DNA from: Tychonema sp. LEGE 06208
Lineage (GTDB): Bacteria; Cyanobacteriota; Cyanobacteriia; Cyanobacteriales; Microcoleaceae
Reading direction: 5' to 3'
NCBI RefSeq assembly: GCF_015207505.1
Contig: NZ_JADEWT010000054.1
Location: forward strand, 1-40,565
DNA length: 40,565 nt
Shown here: positions 495 to 39,271 of the stretch, one piece after another
Layout: every line of letters begins with the position of its first letter
Position numbering within the stretch: position 1 is the first letter of the stretch
Notes under the pieces: generated by a model
Seen by the model: only the letters and a program-made list of their open reading frames with translations
Database searches by the model: none
Told to the model about the DNA's origin: nothing
Position numbers and translations under genes: made by a program

Positions 495-992
495 TAGAGA
501 GTCTACCGAAAGATTTGCTTTCTCGAAACTCGAAACTCGATCGAATCCGGTTCAAATCAAATCTTGCACCACGCTCAGCAATACCGAAAAAACCGGCTTT
601 CTCAACCAAAATATCGGGCCGCAGCTAAGTAAATCCACCTAATGAAATATCAAATATGGCTCGCCACAAAGCTGGCTGTGTATGTCTTCCTCCGATTTCC
701 TTCCTCCTTCTGCCTTCTGCCTGATGACGTTGTACGGAAAGCTCGGAGGCGACAGCACTAATGACTAATGACTAATGACTGATGACTAATGACTAATGAC
801 TAATGACTAATGACTACTGACGTTGTACCGAAAGCTCGGAGGCGACAGCACTAATGACTAATGACTAATGACTGATGACTAATGACTAATGACTAATGAC
901 TACTGACGTTGTACCGAAAGCTCGGAGGCGACCGCACTACTGACTACTGACTACTGACTACTGACTACTGACTAATGACTACTGACTAGCCT
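495..992. repeat. Gene-free stretch with TAATGAC/TACTGAC heptamer arrays and three leader copies
   Basis: From about 722 to 985 the DNA is almost entirely heptamers (TAATGAC, TGATGAC, TACTGAC) in runs broken by three copies of a conserved block, at 722-758, about 815-851 and 901-938. The block contains GTTGTAC(G/C)GAAAGCTCGG followed by AGGCGAC(A/C)GCAC. The sequence before 722 is C/T-rich (CTTCC-type). Such heptamer arrays are known in cyanobacteria as STRR sequences. No gene is seen. Confidence 0.85.
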
Positions 993-1571
993 TCAAGGCT
1001 GCAAAATTAATTGCCATTCCTCCGCTGTGCTGTTCCAAGCGGGCGAGGCTGTCTCCCCGGCAACGTAAGGCCCCCAGTAGCGGCGGGAACCATCTTGAGC
1101 AAAAACCACCACAATGTCTCCCCGTTTGACTTGTAACTTGCCATCCGGCAGCGATAGCATTAGTCCCTTGTCGCCTCCTTCCCCCGGCGCAAAATCCCAG
1201 TGTGCCGGTTTCCCGTAGGATTTCTCGGCTTTGCCTTTCGACAGCAGGGCTACTCGCACTGGGTGTTCGCTGCGGTTGCTGACGCGCAGAATGCCGGCGG
1301 CTTTAATATTTGCAGGGATTGAGGCAAGCAATTCCTCCTCTGACTCGCGGGGCGCTGCTATTGAGTCGGGTTTTGGCTCGTTTGCGGTATCTGCCGAGGC
1401 TGTGGTAACTGGAGAAACGGGGGGTATTGGGGGGAGTGCGGTGGCTGCGTTCGGTAGATCGCTGGGCTGATTTGCACCGTTGGAGATCGTGATTTCAAAG
1501 CGTCCCAGAAACATTCCTATCATTAGGACGATCGACAATCCAATAAAAATCTGGTAAATTTTAAGCTTCAT
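993..1571 (-). CDS. Membrane-anchored hypothetical protein
   Basis: A protein of about 192 residues starting MKLKIYQIF. One N-terminal hydrophobic segment (residues about 5-20, IFIGLSIVLMIGMFLG) acts as an uncleaved anchor or signal. It is followed by a Pro/Ser/Thr/Ala-rich linker (about 30-65), then a compact domain of about 110 residues with alternating beta-like segments (ILRVSNRSEHPVRVALLS, GDIVVVFAQDGSRRYWGPY). The C-terminal part could be a small extracytoplasmic beta domain, but I do not recognise the family. The ATG at 1571 is preferred; an in-frame GTG at 1601 would only add ten residues. The gene ends beside the heptamer array to its left. Confidence 0.6.
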   Translation of the reverse strand: MKLKIYQIFIGLSIVLMIGMFLGRFEITISNGANQPSDLPNAATALPPIPPVSPVTTASADTANEPKPDSIAAPRESEEELLASIPANIKAAGILRVSNRSEHPVRVALLSKGKAEKSYGKPAHWDFAPGEGGDKGLMLSLPDGKLQVKRGDIVVVFAQDGSRRYWGPYVAGETASPAWNSTAEEWQLILQP

Positions 1572-3535: not shown

Positions 3536-3659
3536 AACATTTTTCTAAAGATGTGCTGATGAAGTCTTAGCCCCCCCAAAGTATGGGGGAGCTAATATCT
3601 AGCGCTACTTTATGAAATTGGTATTAGATGAAATCCTCTCTTCATCGGAAGAGTAAATT

Positions 3660-3764
3660 AACAGCTAACAGTTAACAGTTAACAGCTAACAGTTAACAGC
3701 TAACAGTTAACAGCTAACAGCTAACAGCTAACAGTTAACAGCTAACAGCTAACAGCTAACAGTT
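3660..3764. repeat. 15-copy heptamer array (AACAGCT/AACAGTT)
   Basis: Exactly 105 bases, 15 units of seven, with the last base(s) alternating between CT and TT. This is an STRR-type array. It abuts a leader block at 3766-3801 that is shared with 10767-10800 and 19038-19077. Confidence 0.92.
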
Positions 3765-3825
3765 AACATCATGTCTGAGTGCAACCGGAATTGATATTAT
3801 GTGTCGAGGATTGAGCATTTCTCAA

Positions 3826-5264: not shown

Positions 5265-5314
5265 AGTGCTGTCCCCGAAGAGCGACATCGATTTCGCTCT
5301 TCGGGGACAGCACT
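5265..5314. repeat. 20-bp perfect hairpin
   Basis: AGTGCTGTCCCCGAAGAGCG at 5265-5284 is exactly complementary to 5295-5314, with a 10-base loop containing ATCGAT. Parts of the stem (GAAGAGCGA and GTGCTGTCCCC) recur next to heptamer arrays at about 16788 and 20514. Confidence 0.9.
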
Positions 5315-16637: not shown

Positions 16638-17107
16638 ATTTTTTAGCTACAGCGATATAATTCAAAAAAACTGTTATATAAGAAGTCAGTAGTCAGTAGT
16701 CAGTAGTCAGTAGTCAGTAGTCAGTAGTCATTAGTCATTAGTCAGTAGTCAGTAGTCAGTAGTCAGTAGTCATTAGTCATTCTAGCCGAAGAGCGAAGTC
16801 GAAGGCTAGTCATTAGGAAGAAGGCTGGAGGCTGGAGGCTGGAGGCATAACAATGAACTCTTGCCTCCGTTGCAGTCGGGAGCATCTGGTGTTTTGCATT
16901 TGAGCGTGCGAGCGTCGCCGAAGAGCGTATTGTACAACTGGCGAGCGGGGACGATCGCACTATAATAAAAATGCTTTTTGCAAAACTCCAGAGGCCTCCG
17001 TTGCAATCGACTGCATGGGGAAAGTGCAATTAAGAACACCTAACTATGATGGGCGATTGCTATAACTGTTAACTGTTAACTGTTAACTGTTATAAACAAC
17101 CTTCGTG
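16638..17107. repeat. Gene-free stretch with AGTCAGT heptamers
   Basis: From 16684 to about 16780 the DNA is a run of AGTCAGT units switching to AGTCATT. A short hairpin follows: CTAGCC, GAAGAGCGAAGTCGAA, GGCTAG at about 16783-16810. Then comes a (GGAGGCT)3-type stretch at about 16824. A TTAACTG array lies at 17067-17091. Frames through here are made of translated repeats and are not genes. Confidence 0.85.
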
Positions 17108-20300: not shown

Positions 20301-20678
20301 GCTTAAAAATCTAGCTTAAAATTTTCGACGGAATTGAGGAAGAAGTTAGCAGCATTTTTTGTTGTGGATTGAACAGATGAGTTATGGATTGTTGTCTGTT
20401 TTAATCTCAACTTCTTTCTTGATTTTTTTTTATGATAGGTGAAGGAAGAAGTCATTAGTCATTAGTTATTAGTTATTAGTTATTAGTTATTAGTTATTAG
20501 TTATTAGTCATTAGTGCTGTCCCCGCCGAGCTTTCCGTCCAACGTCATCAGGAAGAAGGAAGAGGGAAGAGGGAAGAGGGAAGAAGGAATTAAGAGATGC
20601 GAGGGGCAATTATCGGGAATGGTTTCAGAAATTCATCAAGTTTTCATAACCTAGAAGGTTGCTATATTACAAAAAATC
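20301..20678. repeat. Gene-free stretch with TTATTAG heptamers and leader A (reverse)
   Basis: An array of AGTCATT/AGTTATT units (about 20450-20513) joins a reverse copy of leader A (20514-20550: GTGCTGTCCCC, GAGCTTTCCGTCC, AACGTCATCA). Next come GGAAGA(G/A)G-type purine repeats (about 20551-20587). Order and orientation match the plus-strand copies elsewhere in mirror image. No gene is seen. Confidence 0.85.
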
Positions 20679-31681: not shown

Positions 31682-31701
31682 CTCTAAACTTTTGGTTTGG
31701 C

Positions 31702-31767
31702 AGAAATTTGCTAGAAATTTGCCAGAAATTTGCCAGAAATTTGCCAGAAATTTGCCAGAAATCTGGC
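31702..31767. repeat. Six-copy 11-bp tandem repeat
   Basis: Units AGAAATTTGC(C/T), five nearly perfect and one degenerate (AGAAATCTGGC). The period of 11 differs from the heptamers that dominate the window and is close to one helical turn. Confidence 0.9.
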
Positions 31768-38901: not shown

Positions 38902-39271
38902 TCATCACTTATGAGTCATCAGTCATTAGTCATTAGTCATTAGTTATTGCTCGTTGCAATAGTAGAACTTTGAACTAATGACTTTTGACCGCACAGCAGC
39001 GATGTACAGATAATTTTTTTCTGTCTCTTCCCTCTTCCTTCTTTCTTCTTGCTGATGACGTTGTACGGAAAGCTCGGAAGCAACAGCAAAACATGACTAA
39101 TGACTAATGACTAATGACTTCTTCCTTCTTCCTGATGACGTTGTACGGAAAGCTCGGAAGCAACAGCACTGATGACTGATGACTAATGACTGATGACTGA
39201 TGACTAATGACTAATGACTAATGACTAATGACTTCTTCCTTCAAAATCCCATTACCAACTAGCAATTTATC
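38902..39271. repeat. Repeat-filled spacer between ctaD and ctaE
   Basis: 370 bases made of AGTCATT/TAATGAC/TGATGAC heptamers and two plus-strand copies of leader A (39053-39089 and 39133-39169), each preceded by C/T-rich CTTCCTTCTT tracts. No gene is seen. The operon continues with ctaE, so the repeats must be transcribed or ctaE needs its own promoter. Confidence 0.9.

Follow-up and report, generated by a model that had tools for sequence, protein, structure and literature searches.

The data assembled here support the view that a leader of about 30 nt and the array of TAATGAC-type heptamers that follows it were copied together as one composite unit, as an earlier note on this DNA had proposed: the unit occurs at 59 loci of the genome, is present or absent at the same sites in different strains, has a leader and an array that vary together, and delimits the match in three of six paralogue pairs. 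We consider it probable that this dispersed repeat, of the form TGATGAC-leader-(TAATGAC-type heptamer)n, resides in (TTCTTCC)n tracts between genes and is copied through C/T homology. The window, that is, the whole stretch of DNA analysed (40,565 nt), corresponds to contig C182 of G000, a draft genome of 6.55 Mb in 232 contigs; because of this draft state array lengths and some copy numbers are uncertain, and eight of the 59 units lie at edges of contigs or of fetched stretches.

Within the window the leader 18-mer GTTGTACGGAAAGCTCGG (up to three mismatches) is found six times, against a mean of 0.05 expected, and a count of six was never reached by the same search in 100 shuffles. The copies start at 729, 822 and 908 (+), at 20543 (−), and at 39060 and 39140 (+), each with no or one mismatch to the 18-mer, and they sit at three loci (units A, B and C) laid out as follows.

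685–721, + strand: apparent docking tract of unit A, C/T-rich, on the 5′ side (read directly; the relative G019 has a C/T tract without leader and heptamers)
722–758, + strand: unit A copy 1, TGATGAC and 30-nt leader (sequence read and 18-mer search)
759–821, + strand: unit A, nine TAATGAC-type heptamers
822–851, + strand: unit A leader copy 2, preceded by TACTGAC (sequence read and 18-mer search)
852–907, + strand: unit A, eight heptamers
908–937, + strand: unit A leader copy 3, preceded by TACTGAC (sequence read and 18-mer search)
938–986, + strand: unit A, seven heptamers, mostly TACTGAC
20551–20589, − strand: tract of C/T heptamers 5′ of unit B (G021 shows an unbroken C/T tract here)
20514–20550, − strand: unit B, TGATGAC and G-type leader GTTGGACGGAAAGCTCGGCGGGGACAGCAC
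20451–20513, − strand: unit B, nine heptamers (TAATGAC, six TAATAAC, two TAATGAC)
20441–20450, − strand: 3′ side of unit B, where the C/T tract resumes (TTCTTCCTTC)
39024–39052, + strand: C/T-rich tract on the 5′ side of unit C (C/T tract only here in G019)
39053–39118, + strand: unit C1, TGATGAC, leader, AAACATGAC and three heptamers
39119–39132, + strand: C/T tract TTCTTCCTTCTTCC between C1 and C2
39133–39232, + strand: unit C2, TGATGAC, leader and nine heptamers
39233–39242, + strand: C/T tract resuming after C2 (TTCTTCCTTC)

All six of the 37-base blocks listed in the earlier note are present, but they fall at three loci and not four, and the 37-mer is exact at 722 only; nor does every block begin with TGATGAC, as had been stated, since TACTGAC takes its place before leader copies 2 and 3 of unit A. 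The copy at 20543 reads GTTGGAC..GGCGGGGACAGCAC, that at 39060 reads ..GGAAGCAACAGCAAAACATGAC and that at 39140 reads ..GGAAGCAACAGCAC. A C/T-rich tract precedes each of the three loci, the two inner copies of unit A following another heptamer; TAATGAC-type heptamers come after all six leaders (at 39060 by way of AAACATGAC), and six bases separate the last heptamers of unit A from the stop codon (993–995) of a minus-strand ORF at 993–1601. The order and orientation, including those of the reverse copy, are constant in the window and in 84 of 86 matches genome-wide (judged by eye), as had been claimed. No Rfam family matched in the window at gathering scores. Other arrays are also seen there: a TAATGAC/TACTGAC array at 16685–16815 (−) carries a different insert, TAGCCTTCGACTTCGCTCTTCGGCTA, directly after CTTCTTCC-TAATGAC, and further tandem arrays are formed by (TAACAGC/TAACAGT)n at 3659–3768 and by the 11-base TTTGCCAGAAA at 31696–31762. 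Elsewhere, a GC-rich insert around ACGCACCATCCACCGCCCC lies inside some heptamer arrays (L032, L054 and L060, on C46, C22 and C148 of G000), and the GC-rich insert within a heptamer array on C79 of G021 (L152) reads CCGCACC..

Across the genome the 18-mer search (up to three mismatches) returned 86 matches, compared with three for the reversed control. Flanks read by eye place 84 of them in a repeat context, the exceptions being C7:3180 and C184:18513, and these 84 copies make up 59 loci. In a gapless alignment the unit starts with TGATGAC, which is the −1 heptamer in 50 of the 59 loci; it is preceded by TTCTTCC, by a variant of that heptamer or by nTCGGAC, with TTCC, GGAC or TGCC immediately 5′ of the −1 heptamer in 52 of 59. 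The information content is at least 1.35 bits throughout positions −8 to +15, except at +4 (T or G, 1.01 bits), and upstream of −8 it varies, decaying as a period-seven pyrimidine pattern to about −32. The leader, about 29–30 nt long (about 37 with TGATGAC), comes as a T-type, GTTGTACGGAAAGCTCGGAGGCGACAGCA, and a G-type, GTTGGACGGAAAGCTCGG(G)nACAGCA, both with variants; between it and the heptamers stands C at 40 loci, AAACATGAC at 17 and T at two. At 34 of the 59 loci a transition from GAC/AAC to C/T occurs within about 600 nt after the last leader, the return beginning exactly with TTCTTCC in 30 of the 34, and the phase of the C/T tract is fixed on both sides of the unit.

Most leaders adjoin heptamers, so that one of the two outcomes which the earlier note had named as refuting its proposal did not arise: by a strict test (at least three tandem TAATGAC-type heptamers 24–140 nt after the leader start) 50 of the 59 loci carry them, against 199 of 20,000 random positions (1%), and at the remaining nine the heptamers are broken by GTTGGAC, TAAGGAC, TGTTGAC or another module. 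Counted by single copies the figure is 60 of 84, much of the shortfall being due to a 13-copy array on C43 whose heptamers include TAAGGAC. In this array (L031, 5805–6950) thirteen leader copies run head to tail at 93-base spacing (12 exact), each 93-base unit consisting of C/T tract, leader and heptamers. A CRISPR array, which the regular spacing had raised, was rejected, as the ‘spacers’ at C43:5805–6938 are heptamers plus C/T tract, repeated almost unchanged. Neither does the leader lie inside a conserved gene, the other outcome that would have spoken against the proposal: a crude ORF of at least 80 aa encloses only one of the 59 units, and a gene or peptide was further rejected on the grounds that pure TAATGAC arrays contain stops in every frame of both strands (read directly) and that G-type leaders do not retain the GGAGG seen in T-type ones. 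A preference of the units for gene order or strand was likewise dismissed, the right-hand ORF being on the unit's strand in 27 cases and not in 22 (49 units for which both neighbours were called, crude ORF calls).

The earlier note further described the leader as dedicated to TAATGAC arrays, and this part of the claim is not supported. Outside the window, 16 of 18 sampled TAATGAC arrays of at least three heptamers lack the leader, in 376 kb (C110, C155 and part of C221) that are enriched for leaders because these contigs hold leader matches; in the window the leader is present at six of eight such arrays. Moreover, the 5′ half of the leader also heads arrays of another kind: TGATGAC-GTTGKACGGAAAGC precedes AGTTGTC arrays as well, the head common to both module types being 21 nt. 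Strictly defined C/T heptamer tracts are rare (11 in 416 kb), and six of the 11 have the head within 50 nt, one of these six being an AGTTGTC-type head and three lying in the window. In the second composite, TGATGAC-GTTGKACGGAAAGC is followed by (AGTTGYC)n and then mostly by TTACCA.., TAACAAA- or TAATAAC-type and TAATGAC arrays; we observed it at L300–L303, L101 and L102 (C39, C66, C148, C213 and C110 of G000) and, in G021, in the slots of units 5 and 35.

In order to compare the same sites between strains, 18 of the 59 loci, picked for clean flanks and not randomly, were set against five relatives (G027, G019, G009, G021 and G028), and 74 of the 90 cells were resolved and sorted by eye. The leader unit is present in nine cells, eight of which belong to G021; 17 have a C/T tract alone, 20 another heptamer module and 28 neither, so that the unit is indeed present in some strains and absent from others at allelic sites. 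The 17 cells with C/T alone are spread over 11 sites and include a degenerate tract (site 15 in G028) and a tract followed by TGACTAA (site 12 in G019); site 37 in G019 holds CAACTGT heptamers, and site 57 in G027 and site 12 in G028 (with a short C/T stretch) were counted as having neither. The first locus of the window, one of the 18 sites, carries leader units in G027; in G019 a C/T tract directly adjoins the gene end, and G009 and G012 lack leader unit and C/T tract alike. In G001 the place is taken by a different repeat (TTACATCCGTTACATCC..), and in G016 by heptamers together with a leader end of variant sequence. Unit 36 is filled in G021 and represented by C/T only in G019, G027 and G009; units 5 and 35 are of the TAATGAC type in G000 and of the AGTTGTC type, with an identical head, in G021; the slot of unit 57 in G021 contains a leader of the CCAAAG subfamily with GTTGGAC heptamers; and at unit 22 the four resolved relatives all lack both C/T tract and unit. 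A module of the form ATCCGTTACATCCGTTACAAAATCCGTTGCCGAACTTCCTTC also fills the same slots in relatives (sites 1, 11, 14, 35 and 57 in G009, G019 and G027; site 0 in G001).

Considering that filled sites have counterparts with C/T alone, leader and array are a cassette inside a TTCTTCC tract that can exist without the cassette. Leader and heptamers stand as a unit, whereas the C/T tract, which the earlier note had included in it, makes better sense as a docking site; the heptamer of the tract that adjoins the unit is also uncorrelated with leader variants. A site with C/T alone could be the product of deletion between flanking C/T tracts, and for most sites the comparison does not distinguish insertion from loss.

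Leader and array vary together. Over all 59 loci the leader correlates with heptamers 1–3 (Mantel r = 0.285, reached by 5 of 3000 permutations), and the correlation persists (r = 0.245, 21 of 3000) when nine loci are dropped that lie at edges or probably represent both ends of a single array. The heptamer upstream of TGATGAC is not associated with the leader (r = −0.03, 2077 of 3000 for 59 loci; r = −0.08, 2670 of 3000 after dropping the nine). The signal fades at heptamers 5 and 6 (292 and 378 of 3000, 59 loci), and after the nine loci were dropped neither heptamer 1 alone (191 of 3000) nor heptamers 4–6 (342 of 3000) reached significance. The first heptamer divides between ATAAC-like and TRATGAC forms as 2:24 for T-type leaders versus 13:9 for G-type leaders (Fisher p = 1.6e-4), or 2:17 versus 13:7 (p = 8e-4) without the nine loci. 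Six paralogue pairs, chosen by us, were then aligned locally: in three the match begins at −8 (TGATGAC) and ends with the shorter array, pairs 22/51 and 37/38 extend upstream of TGATGAC (22/51 as far as −89), and pair 5/11 aligned in the arrays alone. A dispersed module of about 60 bp (AAATCCACCTAATTAAACGTAAAATACNGATCGC..AAGCTTGCTGTGTATGT), for example at window 629–684, precedes some C/T tracts and also occurs in relatives without the leader. A larger element that would include this upstream module (AAATCCACCTAATTAAACGTAAAATA..) was rejected; the module is read as a separate repeat because it lies upstream of only 10 of the 59 units, yet it falls within the match of pair 22/51.

The 3′ part of the leader resembles one arm of a dispersed hairpin repeat, a copy of which lies in the window and has a strong predicted fold (DNA z = −10.1).

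5265–5314, no strand assigned: dispersed hairpin repeat AGTGCTGTCCCC..GGGGACAGCACT, its right arm resembling the 3′ part of the leader

A match to the leader 3′ half at C155:127841–127888 is one arm of a hairpin, TAGTGCTGTCCCCCC..GGGGGGGACAGCACTA, and this hairpin family was found in eight of 29 genus genomes (exact search). For 57 of the 59 leaders the score against the C155 arm exceeds that of every one of 200 letter shuffles, with the highest-scoring match identical at 20 of 20 letters and covering the last 20 nt of the leader; the match joins G-rich sequences, a composition that letter shuffles preserve. A hairpin in the leader itself was rejected, the first copy in the window showing no fold either as RNA (z = 0.14) or as DNA (z = −0.26). 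At C225:21495 (L299, G-type) a hairpin-like part is followed by an array and the head is missing. On the simplest reading of these sequences, a hairpin arm would have become attached to a heptamer array, and the resulting composite would then have multiplied.

As to how the cassette spreads, we infer a series of steps in which fusion of the hairpin arm to a heptamer array would have created the leader, the C/T tracts on both sides would act as homology arms or docking pads, and the segment between two of them would be copied into another C/T tract by short-homology copying, whether through template switching, strand annealing or gene conversion. Slippage may then change the length of the array, and exchange of cassettes may leave different modules in one slot in different strains; no dedicated enzyme would be required. 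Probably the unit does not itself serve the cell in any way and is simply tolerated between genes. Some observations sit uneasily with copying through C/T homology. The two C/T arms are not always visible, because 25 of the 59 loci show no C/T return after the last leader, and the 5′ pyrimidine arm is shorter than 7 nt at 15 of 59, although 11 of these 15 follow GGAC and are penalised by the measure. Since the upstream heptamer does not travel with the leader, the 5′ end appears more precise than homology predicts; plain gene conversion should often carry that heptamer along, which counts against this route, whereas the upstream sequence shared by pairs 22/51 and 37/38 (two of six) speaks against a precise end.

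This precision is what one would expect if the leader were a small dispersed repeat of the Elhai type, whose exact insertion, through an RNA intermediate or some other dedicated activity, depended on recognition of the head TGATGAC-GTTGKAC-GGAAAGC and took place at TTCC^TTC in C/T heptamer tracts, with the heptamer array as a variable tail. We regard such an activity, the main alternative to homology, as rather unlikely, even though it accords with the 5′ boundary at TGATGAC in the information profile and in three of six pairs, with the indifference of the leader to the upstream heptamer, with one head serving two bodies (TAATGAC or AGTTGTC type) and with a C/T tract that keeps its phase on either side of the unit. 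This constant phase would follow just as well if C/T tracts paired, however; no target duplication was recognisable in the period-seven tracts, and the leader copy examined has no fold. Target-primed reverse transcription, moreover, predicts 5′-truncated copies, and these look rare: the T-type 3′ half (no or one mismatch) has 57 matches in the genome, all but three of them listed leaders, and of the three one lies at a contig end and two have a variant head. In favour of a dedicated activity, the headless G-type copy at C225:21495 does exist, and the truncation search used the T-type pattern only. The more specific proposal that the 21-nt head is the recognition end of a dedicated mobility system placing exchangeable heptamer bodies (TAATGAC or AGTTGTC) into C/T tracts we hold to be unlikely; if true, it would describe a gene-free mobile element with a fixed head, an exchangeable tandem-repeat body and a core of less than 100 bases.

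It is quite improbable that the leader was inserted repeatedly on its own into pre-existing heptamer arrays, without joint copying. Some GTTC-type leaders of other species with heptamers on both sides (G007, G016 and one of two in G001) and leaderless arrays after a C/T tract (site 11 in G028, site 47 in G009) would fit such a history, but 17 cells at 11 sites have the C/T tract with neither leader nor array, leader and array head co-vary, and the first leader precedes the array at most loci, next to a C/T-type or GGAC heptamer, and does not lie at random inside it. We consider it highly unlikely that the unit is a MITE or resembles a REPIN, with its movement driven in trans by a RAYT or IS200/IS605-type transposase. 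The leader unit is small, non-autonomous and of high copy number, as REPINs are according to the text available from PMC3116915, and there is a match between its 3′ part and an arm of a genuine hairpin repeat; the leader resembles that one arm only, however, and REPINs as described there are REP doublets forming hairpins, in contrast to the foldless leader copy tested, which weakens this option. Ordinary slippage combined with vertical inheritance of old repeats, without any mobility, is scarcely credible. Local tandem growth is real, as the C43 array illustrates, but G000 has 59 loci (85 matches) where a relative with 98% identity at one locus has five matches, one of which lacks the context, presence and absence differ site by site, and slippage cannot put the same leader at unrelated loci, so that the dispersed copies refute it as sole explanation. 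The argument in the earlier note that plain slippage does not account for a constant flank is thereby upheld by a unique leader at 59 dispersed loci. Set against these alternatives, copying through C/T homology is the reading we prefer.

The subfamily found here is narrowly distributed. The pattern ATGACGTTGKACSSAAAGCTC (up to two mismatches) gave 91 matches in G000, 56 in G021, 15 in G028, four in G027 and two in G009, some of them AGTTGTC-type heads, and none in 24 of the 29 genus genomes, including G019. A collection that covers 84,980 species with a single genome each, and from which own or near records may have been left out, contains exact matches in 35 stretches, which come from only three other named strains, each belonging to the Microcoleus group: Tychonema sp. 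LEGE 07203, Microcoleus sp. LEGE 07076 and filamentous cyanobacterium Phorm 6. Viral contigs gave no exact match to the pattern, and plasmids no match to window 660–1010. In a quick tree of a 1.2-kb flank from 22 genomes (excluding G028), G021, G009, G019, G000 and G027 are grouped by a branch with 99% SH-aLRT. A related GTTC-type leader, ATGACGTTGKACGTTCGCTC (up to two mismatches), occurs in nine of 29 genomes, including G022, where its match has no repeat context. As the GTTC type is the wider and the GGAAAG type confined to few strains, in which it is highly amplified, an older leader family appears to be wide in the genus, with the GGAAAG subfamily having multiplied in one group. C/T heptamer stretches were present in all 29 genus genomes searched, a count to which the reversed-pattern control adds nothing, TTCTTCC arrays being unchanged by reversal.

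Among known systems, the closest kind would be the small dispersed repeats SDR1–SDR8 of Nostoc, reportedly described by Elhai et al. in 2008 (in Genome Res 18:1484), which are said to be about 21–27 nt long, dispersed, often located in heptamer arrays and subject to nested insertion, SDR4–6 reportedly sharing a predicted secondary structure with compensatory changes. Like them, the leader is tiny, dispersed, apparently mobile, embedded in heptamers (50 of 59 loci) in a filamentous cyanobacterium, and present or absent at orthologous sites (nine of 74 cells filled, 17 with C/T alone). The lengths to set beside the 21–27 nt of those repeats are 29–30 nt for the leader, about 37 nt with TGATGAC and 21 nt for the head shared by the two module types. 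As differences, the host belongs to the Microcoleus group, the leader stands at one boundary of a TAATGAC-type array with which it co-varies, the cassette is nested in a second heptamer system (C/T), and, unlike SDR4–6, the first copy in the window has no fold. The short tandemly repeated repetitive (STRR) heptamers of cyanobacteria, reportedly described by Mazel et al. in 1990, resemble the present arrays in forming seven-base tandem repeats between genes; here, in contrast, a unique leader is linked to the array (59 loci), and presence or absence concerns the composite as a whole. To our knowledge, co-variation with an array, nesting in a second heptamer system, a shared head with different bodies and an origin from a hairpin arm appear to be undescribed. 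Among the literature matches listed, with subscription papers mostly outside their scope, none dealt with such a leader in Microcoleus. The Nostoc small dispersed repeats are cited, in the text available, in PMC3116915, PMC4390886 and PMC2884548. Intergenic TAACTGA direct repeats of Beggiatoaceae and cyanobacteria, at strain-specific sites in the latter, are reported in the accessible text of MacGregor (2015; PMC4679880); they too are intergenic heptamers, and the rotation TGATAAC is among the heptamers here, but that text describes no leader for them, and the role in translation it proposes for Beggiatoaceae contrasts with the mixed gene orientation of our units (27:22).

Our findings bear on the spread of tiny gene-free sequences, given that leader and heptamers have apparently been copied as a package into dozens of intergenic places. 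Where the heptamer repeats of cyanobacteria come from, and how they arrive at the same places across strains, is an old question. The filled, C/T-only, differently filled and empty sites of related strains make insertion, loss and exchange directly testable, and they suggest a route by which a tiny sequence without genes may multiply by living between two copies of another repeat.
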